64,000 nucleotides of DNA, taken from positions 62,001-126,000 of the forward strand of contig PNOM01000001.1 in assembly GCA_013824835.1 (NCBI GenBank). The letters run 5' to 3'. Positions within the stretch are counted from its first letter, which is position 1, and each line of letters begins with the position of its first letter. The position numbers were made by a program, and so were the translations under genes. This document shows positions 45,271-54,253 of this stretch, piece by piece. The DNA comes from Syntrophus sp. (in: bacteria). Its GTDB lineage: Bacteria > Desulfobacterota > Syntrophorhabdia > Syntrophorhabdales > Syntrophorhabdaceae. The notes beneath the pieces were generated by a model. That model was not told the origin of the DNA, did not search any database, and worked only from the letters and a program-made list of their open reading frames with translations.

Positions 45271-46194
45271 CTATATCTCCGGTCTGGGAAAAAGACCTGC
45301 CGCCTTTACGATCTCAGCAACCTTTTCTTCCCACTCGATGGCCATAATATGAATACCGGCAACGCCTTTAATGTTCTTTACCCGTTCAATGATCTCAAGG
45401 CAGATTGCAATGCCTTCTTCTGCGACCTTTTCTTTAGGCACGCTCCGCAGGCGCTCAATGTGTTCATCGGGCACATCCATGCCGGGTACGGATTTCTTCA
45501 TGTAATTGGCCATGCCGATAGACTTGTAGGGGGTGATGCCTGCGAGGATATACATCTTTTCGTGGACCCCGAGGTCCCGTACCATTTCCATCCATTTCTC
45601 AAACTTATCTACATTGAAGACGCACTGGGTCTGGACAAACTCTGCCCCTGCCGCCGCCTTCTTTGCAAGGCGCATGGCCCTTATCTCAAAGGGATCGCCA
45701 AAGGGATTCTCCGCGCAGCCGATAAAGATGTTCGGCCTACCCTTTACCTCATCTCCGCTAATGAATTTGCCCTCATCCCGCATTCGTTTTACCGTCTGGA
45801 TAAGCTGCATGGAATCTATGTCAAAGACGTTCTTTGCCCCTGGGTGATCGCCGAAAGACTGATGGTCCCCGGAGAGGCAGAGAAGATTATTGACCCCCAA
45901 TGAGGCCGCACCGAGGATATCGCTCTGGATTGCAATCCGGTTTCTGTCCCTGCATACCATCTGCATGACAGGATCAAAGCCCATGTTTTTCAGAATGAGG
46001 GAGCCCGCAAGACTGCTCATCCGGGCAACGCTCGTCTGATTATCCGTCACATTGACGGCGTCTATATACCCTTTCAGGAAAGCGCCTTTCTTCTTTACCA
46101 CCTCAGGATCAGCGCCCCGTGGAGGACCGCACTCTGATGTGACGGCAAAGGCGCCGCTCTTCAGGACCTTCTCTAAATTGCTCCCCGTACTCAT
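45271..46194 (-). CDS. metF: Methylene-tetrahydrofolate reductase catalytic subunit
   Basis: MetF reduces methylene-THF to methyl-THF using flavin. The 307-residue barrel shows TSECGPPRGADPE, VTDNQTSVARMSS, LLCLSGDHQSFGDHPGA with the flavin-binding region, and FVQTQCVFNVDKFEKWM. The ATG at 46194 overlaps the metV stop as ATGA and has a GGAGG site. A start at 46251 would run back into metV. Cluster context with MetV and Hdr proteins matches the Wood-Ljungdahl methyl branch rather than methionine synthesis alone. Confidence 0.93.
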   Translation of the reverse strand: MSTGSNLEKVLKSGAFAVTSECGPPRGADPEVVKKKGAFLKGYIDAVNVTDNQTSVARMSSLAGSLILKNMGFDPVMQMVCRDRNRIAIQSDILGAASLGVNNLLCLSGDHQSFGDHPGAKNVFDIDSMQLIQTVKRMRDEGKFISGDEVKGRPNIFIGCAENPFGDPFEIRAMRLAKKAAAGAEFVQTQCVFNVDKFEKWMEMVRDLGVHEKMYILAGITPYKSIGMANYMKKSVPGMDVPDEHIERLRSVPKEKVAEEGIAICLEIIERVKNIKGVAGIHIMAIEWEEKVAEIVKAAGLFPRPEI

Positions 46195-46859
46195 AGCTTC
46201 AAATCCTCCCTGACCCGTTTTCTCGGTCCCCCATCCCTGCTTGTGGACCAATTTTTCATAGGCTGAATCTCCAGGTATTTCTCCAACATATTCATCTCTT
46301 TATATCGATCCACAATAAGCTGCCAGGCACAGGGTGTTTCTTTGTTTACCTCACACTTGCCTCCCTGTGAACCGCCGCATGGCCCATTGAAAATGCTCTT
46401 CGCGCAGCGGGTAACAGGACATATACCAAGTGTCTTGTCGAGGACGCATGCCCCGCACCCCTGACAACGCTCCGTCCATACGCCTTGTTCCTCTGCAACC
46501 CCGTAGAAGGTGGTGTCAACAGCAGGCAAAACCAGCTTATCCCTGTAATGTTCACCTACAAACTGGATACCGCAGCCGCAGGCCATGGAGATGGCAACCT
46601 CGTAATCGTTGATAGCCGGTTTCAGGGACTCCACGTATTCAGTATCACAGTTTCTCTCCAGAGTCAGTTCCTTTATTTCAACGGGTTGTCCCTCTTTCTG
46701 TCTGAAAAGCCTGATTTCAGAGGCGAGGACTGAGACCTCTTTTGCCCCTCCAGTGGCGCAGACGGTAACGCACTCATTGCACCCGAGAAGGAGTATCTTT
46801 GAATAGGGCTTCAGCATCTCAATAATCTCTTCAAAGGGCTTTCTATTTGCTACTATCAT
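46191..46859 (-). CDS. metV: MetV, zinc/Fe-S subunit of methylene-THF reductase
   Basis: The 222-residue protein carries a C-terminal MTHFR_C-type cysteine cluster: CQGCGACVLDKTLGICPVTRC and then GPCGGSQGGKCEV with PCAWQLI. An N-terminal part has LLGCNECVTVCATGG. In acetogens MetV is the partner of MetF and links it to further electron carriers. It is translationally coupled to metF. An AGGAG site precedes the ATG. The upstream spacer to mvhD contains an inverted repeat. Confidence 0.93.
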   Translation of the reverse strand: MIVANRKPFEEIIEMLKPYSKILLLGCNECVTVCATGGAKEVSVLASEIRLFRQKEGQPVEIKELTLERNCDTEYVESLKPAINDYEVAISMACGCGIQFVGEHYRDKLVLPAVDTTFYGVAEEQGVWTERCQGCGACVLDKTLGICPVTRCAKSIFNGPCGGSQGGKCEVNKETPCAWQLIVDRYKEMNMLEKYLEIQPMKNWSTSRDGGPRKRVREDLKL

Positions 46860-46882: not shown

Positions 46883-46995
46883 GGTTGAGTAGGTTGAGTG
46901 GGGCAAGTAGTTGAGTAAGGAAAATCTCAACCCACTTGTCTACTCATCCACTCGCTCTCCCATTTACTTACTCACCTTACTCAACTTACTCAACC
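46883..46995. repeat. Inverted repeat between metV and mvhD
   Basis: The arms GGTTGAGTAGGTTGAGT (46883-46899) and ACTCAACTTACTCAACC (46979-46995) match with one mismatch of 17. The interior is also rich in TTGAGTA/TACTCA units. Beside it the 13-base unit CTCAACCGGTTTT occurs twice (46990-47002 and 47004-47016), the second copy reaching the mvhD stop. It looks like a small palindromic repeat inserted in the operon. Confidence 0.5.
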
Positions 46996-47004
46996 GGTTT
47001 TTCC

Positions 47005-47421
47005 TCAACCGGTTTTCCGCGCTGGATTCGGCCCTAAGGCCCTTATCTTTTCCGTCATCTCCCGGGCAATCTCTGCGAAGCGCTGTCCCTGGGCTGAAGA
47101 GAGATTATGCATGGCAACACGTTCTTTGCCTATGCCGCTCTCCTCAAGAAGAAGCTTTACATGCTCCACCCGTTTCCTTGCCCTCAGATTTCCCCTGAGA
47201 TAGTGACAATCTCCTTCAAGGCAGCCAACAAGGCAGACCCCGTCCGCCCCGCCCTCAAAGGCCTTGAGTATATGGATGATATCAACCCTGCCCGTACAGG
47301 GGACTTTCACGATCTTTATATTTGTCGGGTATGAGAGTCTCATCGAACCTGCCAGGTCCGCTGCAGTATACCCTCAGAACTCACAACAAAAGGCTATGAT
47401 TTCCGGTTCAAATCTTTCCAC
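47005..47421 (-). CDS. mvhD: MvhD-type hydrogenase/Hdr iron-sulfur subunit, probable selenoprotein
   Basis: Read from a GTG at 47421 with an AAAGGAG site, the frame has one in-frame TGA (47376-47374) and ends at a normal stop at 47005. Translating TGA as selenocysteine (U) gives 138 residues beginning MERFEPEIIAFCCEFU and continuing GYTAADLAGSMRLSYP, then VKVPCTGRVD and CLVGCLEGDCHY. This is the usual MvhD length, and U occupies a position that is cysteine in the [2Fe-2S] region of homologues. A SECIS-like hairpin follows. MvhD passes electrons to HdrA. It lies between hdrA and metV. A nonsense mutation is less likely because both sides are conserved. Confidence 0.88.
47344..47376 (-). promoter_or_regulatory. 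Candidate bacterial SECIS element with its TGA
   Basis: On the coding strand the TGA is followed by 13 bases and then the hairpin CGGACCTGGCAGGTTCG, a seven-base-pair stem with one G-T wobble and the loop GGC. A G at the start of a small apical loop about 20 bases after UGA fits the general bacterial SECIS model. The coding sequence itself forms the structure. Confidence 0.7.
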
Positions 47422-47429
47422 ACATGCTC

Positions 47430-47634
47430 CTTTAATGTTCAATGTTCAATCAATAGATTCCTCGAAGCTCTGCTTCGGGGTAAACATATCCCCCTCGCCC
47501 CTCGTGGGAGAGGGTAGGGTGAGGGGGCGTAATCATGTTCCTCATTCCGCTAATACCTCGCAGCTCTGCTGCGGGGTAGTTGATTGTTCTATGTTCAACG
47601 TTGAAAACCTGGCTTTTAACCTTGAACATTGAAC
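47430..47634. repeat. Palindromic repeat cluster between hdrA and mvhD
   Basis: This 205-base spacer contains several short palindromes: CGAAGCTCTGCTTCGGGG, a long run of CCCTC/GAGGG complements around 47490-47530, and CGCAGCTCTGCTGCGGGG. TTCAATGTTCAA-type units occur at both ends. It has no plausible ORF. The composition is that of dispersed non-coding repeats. It would sit in the hdrA-mvhD transcript and could stabilise or attenuate it. Confidence 0.55.
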
Positions 47635-52182: not shown

Positions 52183-52400
52183 TATCTCCTACCTGAAAAG
52201 CCGTGATGCGTACCTCTCCCCATCCCTCCCCACAGGTGGGGAGGGAGATAAGGGAGGGGCCATAACTGGCGTGAAGCGTGATGGGTTGCAATCAACTGCC
52301 TGAAAACTCTCTTGGCCCGTGCCACGCATACATAATCGGCTCTAATCAACTTTTCTTCTAAAGAGTGCATCTCTTTCTCTATGTCCTGCAATCTCAACAA
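52182..52400 (-). CDS. Doubtful 72-codon frame just upstream of hdrA
   Basis: This frame ends in TAATG, its TAA overlapping the hdrA ATG, which looks like coupling. The N-terminal half (LRLQDIEKEMHSLEEKLIR) overlaps the end of the preceding gene. The C-terminal half is translated from a GGGGAGG-rich palindromic repeat (about 52213-52262). I recognise no family. It may be only the spacer left by repeat insertion. Confidence 0.2.
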   Translation of the reverse strand: MLRLQDIEKEMHSLEEKLIRADYVCVARAKRVFRQLIATHHASRQLWPLPYLPPHLWGGMGRGTHHGFSGRR

Positions 52401-52698
52401 GGTTGCCCTTCATCATGTCCTTCAGGTGTCTGAAAACAACATCTTCCTTGAGACCAAGCCTCTCCGAGAGCCCCCAGATTGTCTCTTCCCAGGAGAGCAG
52501 GGCTTCGAGTATCCGGGCCTTCTCAAAGGACATTCTAAGAAGAGGCTCAAACACAAGTGAGAACTGCCTGTCCGTGAATCGCTCGCCGTACACATTCCCG
52601 GTCTTGAGGGCATCTTTCCTGTCAAGGAGCCGCTTCAGCTTCTCAGCTCCGGCAGGGTCATAATTCCTTATATATTCAAGTTTCTCAGTCGTCTCCAT
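52342..52698 (-). CDS. Small winged-helix-like protein of the hdr operon
   Basis: The ATG at 52698 gives 118 residues; one at 52716 adds six more, and both overlap the hdrB end. The sequence ARILEALLSWEETIWGLSERLGLKEDVVFRHLKDM has the spacing of a winged helix-turn-helix, as in small MarR/ArsR-like proteins, but no metal or ligand site is obvious. It is encoded between hdrB and hdrA. It may be a regulator or a structural partner of the Hdr complex. No function can be assigned. Confidence 0.6.
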   Translation of the reverse strand: METTEKLEYIRNYDPAGAEKLKRLLDRKDALKTGNVYGERFTDRQFSLVFEPLLRMSFEKARILEALLSWEETIWGLSERLGLKEDVVFRHLKDMMKGNLVEIAGHRERDALFRRKVD

Positions 52699-53587
52699 TG
52701 TTTTTCCGCTGCTCATATGTATTTATTGTCTTGACCTTAATCACCTTTTTTATTGCCTCATCTACGGGAATAATGTGCGACCCGGCCCCGGAAAGCTTCC
52801 CGAAAAGGGCAAGCTCAAAGATTTCCGAAAGAAAGAGAACGGGCAGGTTTCGCGCTCCCCTGCCGAGGTAGGGAAGGATATCAAGATTGAGCTGGCATAA
52901 GGGGCAGGGTGTAACGATCGCATCTGCGCCCATGGTGATGGCCATATCCATAATACTGCTTGACAGCCTCAGGGTCGTCTCCTTGTTTGTAAGGGTCTTG
53001 CTTGCCCCGCAGCACTCCATCTTAAAAGGCCACTCCGCCACTTCAGCGCCCGTTGCCCAGAGGAGGGTATCCATACTCGTGGGGTTTTCCTTATCGTCAA
53101 AGGTCTCCATATTCATAATCCTGGTCAGCACACAACCGTAATAGGGCACCACCTTGAGACCGGAGAGATCGTATGCGATCTTCCGGGCAATCCTTTCCAC
53201 TCCTGCATACTCGCTGAGGACCTCGATAATATTCTTCACTTCCAGGGTGCCGAGACATTTTAGAGGCTCATTTGCCCTGTTCACCTCATCTCGCAGCTCT
53301 TTGTCTGCTCTCAGCCGTTCATTGGTGATCTTTGACCTGTTGTAACAGGCAGAACAGGGCGCAAAGAGCGGATAATTTTCCTGCTCTGCGAGGCTCAGGT
53401 TTCTCGCCACCAGAGCATGGGCAATGGTCTCATTGATAGTGTGGGCCGCAGAAGCCCCGCAGCAGGACCAGTCGTCAAGCTCCTTCAATCCTATATCATA
53501 GGCGGAGAAGACCTCTCTGATGGAGGTTTCATAGAATTTGCTTGAAGTCTTGAGAGAGCAACCGGGATAGTATGTAAGGGTCCTCAT
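52685..53587 (-). CDS. hdrB: Heterodisulfide reductase-like subunit B
   Basis: The start at 53587, preceded by CAGGTG, gives 300 residues beginning MRTLTYYPGCSL. Two CCG domains are present: YPGCSLKTSSKFYE with DWSCCGASAAHT, and YYGCVLTRIM with KMECCGASKTL. In true HdrB each coordinates a non-cubane Fe-S cluster that reduces disulfides; in MetFV-linked complexes the substrate is unknown. TPCPLCQLNLD is also present. The start overlaps nothing upstream, but a GTGAGGGA tandem repeat lies just before it. Confidence 0.92.
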   Translation of the reverse strand: MRTLTYYPGCSLKTSSKFYETSIREVFSAYDIGLKELDDWSCCGASAAHTINETIAHALVARNLSLAEQENYPLFAPCSACYNRSKITNERLRADKELRDEVNRANEPLKCLGTLEVKNIIEVLSEYAGVERIARKIAYDLSGLKVVPYYGCVLTRIMNMETFDDKENPTSMDTLLWATGAEVAEWPFKMECCGASKTLTNKETTLRLSSSIMDMAITMGADAIVTPCPLCQLNLDILPYLGRGARNLPVLFLSEIFELALFGKLSGAGSHIIPVDEAIKKVIKVKTINTYEQRKNNGDD

Positions 53588-53603
53588 GAAGCACCTGAGG
53601 AGA

Positions 53604-53631
53604 GTGAGGGAGTGAGGGAGTGAGGGAGTGA
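53604..53631. repeat. Short tandem repeat upstream of hdrB
   Basis: The 8-base unit GTGAGGGA occurs three times in tandem plus a partial copy. It lies 17-44 bases upstream of the hdrB ATG, between hdrC and hdrB. Copy number could vary by slippage, and it may affect spacing in the transcript. Confidence 0.45.
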
Positions 53632-53713
53632 AAAACTGCAAAGACGGAAAGATAGTACCTCAAATCCTGCGCTCATGGAGCCTGATTCCACTATTACGGT
53701 GTTCCTCAACTTC

Positions 53714-54253
53714 TTAACCTCCGATCTTCTTATCTTCCAATCTTTTAAACATCTCTTTCAGGCCCTTTCTATCCTTGATATTATGGGGCAGAATGCCCAT
53801 CCTTCCCTTTATAAACATTCCCATGCCCATTTTTGCGTCCCCGAAAAAATCCTTCTTTTCGATCTTATATCTGAGGACCGTCTCTATTTCATGGAGCCTG
53901 CCGTGCTTCTTTACGCTGTCCATAAAGTATTGGTCAAATTTCCATGTATCCGTCTCTGCCTCTTTCTGTTCCTTAACCGCAATCTTTCTCAAGGCATCAA
54001 AGACATGGGCGATGTCGATATCATTGGGACACCTCACGCTGCATGTGACGCACTGAAGACAGGTCCAGATGGTCTTCGACGTGAGAACCCTTTCTCTCTC
54101 ACCGAGGACAATATACCGGATGACCCTGTGAGGATAAAGGTCCATGTCAGCCACGACGGGGCAGCCGATGGTGCATCGGTAACACTGGTAGCATCCGGAT
54201 ATCTTCTCTCCGGAGGCCTTTTCCATCTCATTCAGAAAAGAAAGGTCGTTCAT
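53714..54253 (-). CDS. hdrC: Heterodisulfide reductase-like subunit C
   Basis: The 179-residue protein carries two [4Fe-4S] motifs, CYQCYRCTIGCPV (near residue 18) and CLQCVTCSVRCPN (near 62), in the arrangement of HdrC. It would transfer electrons between HdrA and HdrB. It is the first gene of the minus-strand operon hdrC-hdrB-small gene-hdrA-mvhD-metV-metF, transcribed away from the gene at 54649. The gap upstream is 395 bases. Confidence 0.92.
   Translation of the reverse strand: MNDLSFLNEMEKASGEKISGCYQCYRCTIGCPVVADMDLYPHRVIRYIVLGERERVLTSKTIWTCLQCVTCSVRCPNDIDIAHVFDALRKIAVKEQKEAETDTWKFDQYFMDSVKKHGRLHEIETVLRYKIEKKDFFGDAKMGMGMFIKGRMGILPHNIKDRKGLKEMFKRLEDKKIGG

Follow-up and report, generated by a model that had tools for sequence, protein, structure and literature searches.

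The window analysed here (the whole 64,000-nt stretch of DNA) carries a cluster of genes lying on the minus strand in the order hdrC-hdrB-HTH-hdrA-mvhD-metV-metF (Table 1). The hdrA product consists of two HdrA-like halves and an inserted GltD-like NAD(P)H/FAD domain, and the small HTH-like ORF between hdrB and hdrA recurs at the same location in L054–L058 (40–59% identity). The listed metF ORF may begin ahead of the true start codon. The cluster contains neither a hydrogenase nor a formate dehydrogenase gene and, as judged from its predicted gene content, is of the Moorella-type Hdr-linked methylene-THF reductase type rather than a hydrogenase context. A preliminary description of this DNA had assigned the locus to MvhD, and this family assignment stands; the neighbours are hdrCBA-metVF. 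Intergenic repeats were also observed to either side of mvhD, an inverted ACTCAACC-type repeat ahead of metV (window 46883–46995) and two CAGAGCTNCGAGG units past hdrA (window 47460–47569).

Table 1. Features of the hdrCBA-mvhD-metVF locus, in window coordinates.
Feature	Position	Strand	Basis or remark
hdrC, [4Fe-4S] protein	53714..54253	-	Fer4_17/Fer4_8; CoB_CoM_SS_C below cut-off
hdrB, two CCG domains	52685..53641	-	PF02754; TIGR03288 below cut-off
Small winged-helix-like ORF between hdrB and hdrA	52342..52716	-	Weak HTH_5, below cut-off
hdrA, 1515 aa	47635..52182	-	HdrA2 in several stretches, Fer4_20, Pyr_redox_2
Ribosome-binding site AAAGGAG	47427..47433	-	Direct read of sequence
mvhD CDS, predicted 138-residue selenoprotein	47005..47421	-	GTG start, TGA stop; PF02662 match
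In-frame TGA, predicted Sec16, motif C-C-E-F-U	47374..47376	-	Aligns with conserved CxxC Cys
Bacterial SECIS-type hairpin CGGACCT-GGC-AGGTTCG	47344..47360	-	Zero synonymous variation in core codons of 47 Sec genes
metV, methylene-THF reductase partner	46191..46859	-	PF12225, 6.6e-36
metF, methylene-THF reductase	45271..46251	-	PF02219, 2.8e-37

Read from the GTG at 47421, which follows the AAAGGAG (47433–47427) after a 5-nt gap, mvhD translates as VERFEPEIIAFCCEF-U-GYTAADLAG..., with a single internal TGA and a terminator that is itself TGA (47007–47005); its orthologues begin MERFEPEII.... The start codon and ribosome-binding site, the lone in-frame TGA and the length of 138 residues proposed in the preliminary description all held on re-reading. 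Its expectation that standard gene callers would clip the gene to 112 residues agrees with the mechanical ORF list, in which the sole ORF offered is 112 aa from the ATG at 47343. The read-through product matches PF02662 (FlpD) over residues 8–130 (1.1e-50; 171 bits against a cut-off of 22.3) and covers positions 1–123 of the 123-position profile, so that the MvhD-like sequence noted earlier on both sides of the TGA is borne out by homology. Alignment with Cys-containing relatives, suggested at the same time, places the TGA in the column of the second Cys of a conserved CxxC/CxxU motif (residue 16). Among Hdr complexes of known structure, the product also matches MvhD chains such as 5odc_D (1.6e-35) and 7bkb_F, where the motif reads CNWC and the TGA aligns with its second Cys. 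The NCBIfam exception model for VhuD (NF045873) scored 161 bits, under its curated cut-off of 215, and the product is thus related to VhuD without being classed as VhuD itself. The gene is almost certainly intact, its apparent break being a stop codon that is very probably read as selenocysteine (Sec). The other read-through candidates in the window (34 including mvhD) were set aside because, by eye, they resembled shadow frames or ordinary gene ends (e.g., guaB, 8143).

The hairpin begins 13 nt past the TGA, as had been described, with a 7-bp stem that includes one G-U pair and a GGC loop (47353–47351) located 21–23 nt after the TGA, such that the apical loop opens with G. By folding energy alone it is weak and unexceptional (-17.3 kcal/mol for 50 nt, z = -1.86), and an Rfam search of the window returned no match. 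Its conservation is far beyond chance. In a set of 47 distinct TGA-bearing relatives, gathered by protein similarity alone, the exact 16-nt hairpin core occurred at equal distance from the TGA in 46, compared to 0 of 63 Cys relatives; the lone exception (L028) has an Ala-to-Ser change. Synonymous variation across the 47 genes is zero in the core codons (GCG GAC CTG GCA GGT), 1.0–2.0 bits in the four codons preceding the core and 0.9–1.9 bits in most codons past it, and the 27 nearer Cys relatives display 0.5–1.8 bits at the core codons themselves. The peptide ADLAGS is identical in 11 of the 63 Cys relatives, yet none of these possess the core, indicating that the freeze tracks the TGA and not the peptide. 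Shared descent alone does not account for the freeze, since wobble positions beside the core vary freely. As an invariant hairpin offers no covariation, the case for pairing comes from its invariance and its predicted fold. Across the phylum, the pattern TGA-N13-core (≤2 mismatches) was found in 126 of 395 genomes, compared to ~9 genomes for a reversed control pattern, and most of the matches listed were exact and continued TGA-G[CG]N-TA[TC], corresponding to the [AG]-Y of MvhD. In more distant MvhD homologues from the family of the source genome (L167, L168, L169, L170 and L171), this residue is likewise TGA, but the hairpin downstream of it is another one, CTGGAGTTTCCAG.

The source genome (3.3 Mb, 94% complete, a draft of 235 contigs) encodes selA (581 bits), selB (383 bits), selD (370 bits) and a tRNA-Sec with a TCA (UCA) anticodon (71 bits by covariance model, with ARAGORN in agreement). 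The preliminary description had left selA, selB, selC and selD to be looked for, and all are present; a lack of selB and tRNA-Sec, one of two findings it had named as telling against Sec, did not hold, and the other, a TGC or TGT on resequencing, is answered by the identical TGA in dozens of independent genomes. Among 39 genomes of the family, close orthologues (at least 67% identity) have one TGA each, except for G031, which has Cys. The family is probably Syntrophorhabdaceae, as the named records L057 and L058 share mvhD segments with its genomes. G037 is the only genome among those checked in which selA, selB and tRNA-Sec are all absent; it has no close TGA-bearing mvhD, and its homologue is only 40% identical with no internal stop. 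Three genomes (G001, G023 and G035) had no selA match but do have selB and tRNA-Sec, and selA is probably missing from these assemblies. In G031, selA and selB were detected and tRNA-Sec was not. In its orthologue (L043, G031:C162), TGC replaces the TGA that is kept by the other sampled members of the genus, and an A24C change abolishes one hairpin pair, an apparent recent Sec-to-Cys change. In the selD of the source genome (L022, G000:C70:14233-15147), codon 25 of the frame as listed is an internal TGA (GAGUASK), and SelD is itself probably a selenoprotein. The source genome also contains a second, divergent mvhD-metV pair (L004, 1504–1920, G000:C15), whose degenerate CxxC (FFCQQID) seems to be without Cys or Sec at residue 16; a Sec suspected in this second MvhD was rejected, the TGA being the end of the gene.

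If the TGA were a real stop, translation could re-initiate at the ATG at 47343, with the conserved stretch serving as the ribosome-binding site (GCAGGTTCGATG) of a 112-residue product. An AGG does lie just 5′ of this ATG, which is found in 47 of 47 Sec genes of the set gathered by protein similarity, compared to 12 of 27 nearer Cys genes. However, the residues from TGA to ATG are kept while their codons are free (Tyr in 47/47, with both codons used; Ala in 46/47, with several), and such conserved residues with free synonymous change point to translation through the TGA. Further, the frozen 5′ arm (CGGACC) is not a Shine-Dalgarno, the Sec genes L140 and L163 are without the ATG and the clipped product would be without the motif Cys13, all of which make re-initiation very improbable.

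Decoding of the TGA as another amino acid, either Trp through a code change or Cys through a UCA tRNA, would be in keeping with the Cys that relatives carry at this site. Against such decoding, TGA terminates mvhD itself, the UCA tRNA is the tRNA-Sec identified by both methods, selA, selB and selD are present, and a hairpin frozen only alongside TGA suits SelB-directed decoding, leaving only a slight chance that another amino acid is inserted. Sequencing error or a pseudogene might be suspected in a window drawn from a draft assembly of many contigs, but dozens of genomes of independent origin share this TGA at the same codon, the frame past it is intact and its amino acids are under purifying selection; the comparative data refute this explanation, which is barely credible.

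The comparative evidence that the UGA is decoded as Sec is strong, and from it we infer the insertion of selenium. It is very likely that this MvhD is a selenoprotein produced by hairpin-directed decoding of UGA16, with a likely role in a Moorella-type HdrABC-MvhD-MetVF complex. UGA codon 16 would be decoded by tRNA-Sec and SelB, with SelB directed by the hairpin within the coding region just 3′ of the UGA. As a [2Fe-2S] electron-transfer subunit linking HdrA and partner modules, MvhD would most likely belong to a soluble complex of the Moorella type, a placement based on gene order and on published Moorella and Sporomusa work. In that complex it would relay electrons between MetVF, the methylene-THF reductase, and the flavins of HdrA, whose GltD-like insert would be the entry point for NAD(P)H; the flow could run in either direction within the methyl branch of the Wood-Ljungdahl pathway. 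Sec16, in place of the second CxxC cysteine near the cluster, may adjust or accelerate the transfer of electrons.

Sec in this family is already known. FrhD selenoproteins (PF02662, CxxU) have been documented in Deltaproteobacteria and archaea (PMC1794560), including eight in Syntrophobacter fumaroxidans (PMC1794560, PMC2702500, PMC13188914); four mvhD with Sec are reported from Desulfobacterium autotrophicum (PMC2702500) and one from Desulfococcus multivorans (PMC5109826), and the CxxU family has been catalogued with up to two Sec (PMC13188914). The methanogen VhuD named as precedent in the preliminary description is sound, and the deltaproteobacterial MvhD/FrhD belong with it among the closest precedents. 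The protein described here shares its family, CxxU site and decoding system with the FrhD, MvhD and VhuD selenoproteins, but reports of those stress hydrogenase, HdrA and formate-dehydrogenase operons, whereas this gene lies in an hdrCBA-metVF cluster and its hairpin is distinct, phylum-wide and nearly invariant. No statement of a metV-linked MvhD as a selenoprotein was found in the open-access literature, though this absence is not proven, and some of the catalogued FrhD selenoproteins may be metV-linked MvhD. This mvhD adds a member to a known group along with an informative comparative signal.

The gene set is shared with the Moorella-type Hdr-methylene-THF reductase cluster, and the HdrA has the two HdrA-like halves and GltD insert known from Moorella thermoacetica (PMC9430772). 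Unlike the Cys of a Moorellales MAG homologue (L105), the residue predicted here is Sec16, and there is an extra conserved small HTH-like ORF in the hdrB/hdrA gap. In Sporomusa pulldowns, MvhD contacts HdrA, HdrB and MetF (PMC9430772). In the methanogen Mvh-Hdr, Fdh-Hdr and Elp-Hdr complexes (5ODC, 7BKB), a structural paper describes the MvhD homologue as the [2Fe-2S] link from HdrA to its partners, its cluster lying close to the FAD at which HdrA bifurcates electrons (PMC12350162); a hydrogenase or formate dehydrogenase gene is absent here and the partner is probably MetVF.

Linkage to metV was common among sampled Sec genes, with metV just 3′ of mvhD in 66 of 72, compared to 19 of 64 Cys genes, though the sample was seeded from this mvhD protein and these counts are not frequencies. 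Residue 16 of the metV-linked relatives was TGA (n = 66), Cys (n = 19) or Ser (n = 6). In a tree built from 136 columns, in which many forks are unresolved, a group of 110 rows (99% support) contains metV-linked proteins with Sec, Cys or Ser16, and the whole tree requires at least nine state changes at this residue. The proteins with Ser16 (L109, L115, L119, L128, L130, L132 and L133) are mostly metV-linked, keep the other four conserved cysteines and derive from a Chloroflexota-rich set of taxa (Dehalococcoidia, Poribacteria and others).

The near-invariant cysteines of MvhD (13, 16, 42, 67 and 72) number one beyond what a [2Fe-2S] cluster needs; the ligands of the MvhD cluster are not stated in the open-paper passages found. 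Relatives with a TGA at residue 67 were also observed (L081, 4482–4883; L110, 5106–5501; L106, 6001–6399; L061, 2113–2511; L076, 2175–2564). Two of the five (L081 and L110) are metV-linked. In all five, the hairpin after the TGA is not the one described above but ATTACCT-GGA-AGGTAAT or a close variant, with a similar, CCTGGAAGG-like apex. In the sample, Cys67 was present in 72/72 Sec16 proteins and Cys16 in 5/5 Sec67 proteins, and none of the sampled proteins had Sec at both residues. A speculative and rather unlikely reading is that residues 16 and 67 act as a redox-active pair next to the [2Fe-2S] cluster, in which either residue but never both carries selenium. If true, the pair would offer a chemical step by which electrons pass from MvhD to the flavin of HdrA, a transfer called unknown in the structural paper (PMC12350162).

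Synonymous sites that are frozen stand out sharply from those that vary freely, which makes a clean comparative marker of genuine Sec codons. Gene callers would clip MvhD to 112 residues, with loss of the CxxU, in at least dozens of Desulfobacterota genomes, such that misannotation of the methylene-THF reductase complex is an easy error in these anaerobes. If the proposed decoding and complex are correct, these lineages would have a selenium-dependent, Hdr-linked methylene-THF reductase in their Wood-Ljungdahl pathway.
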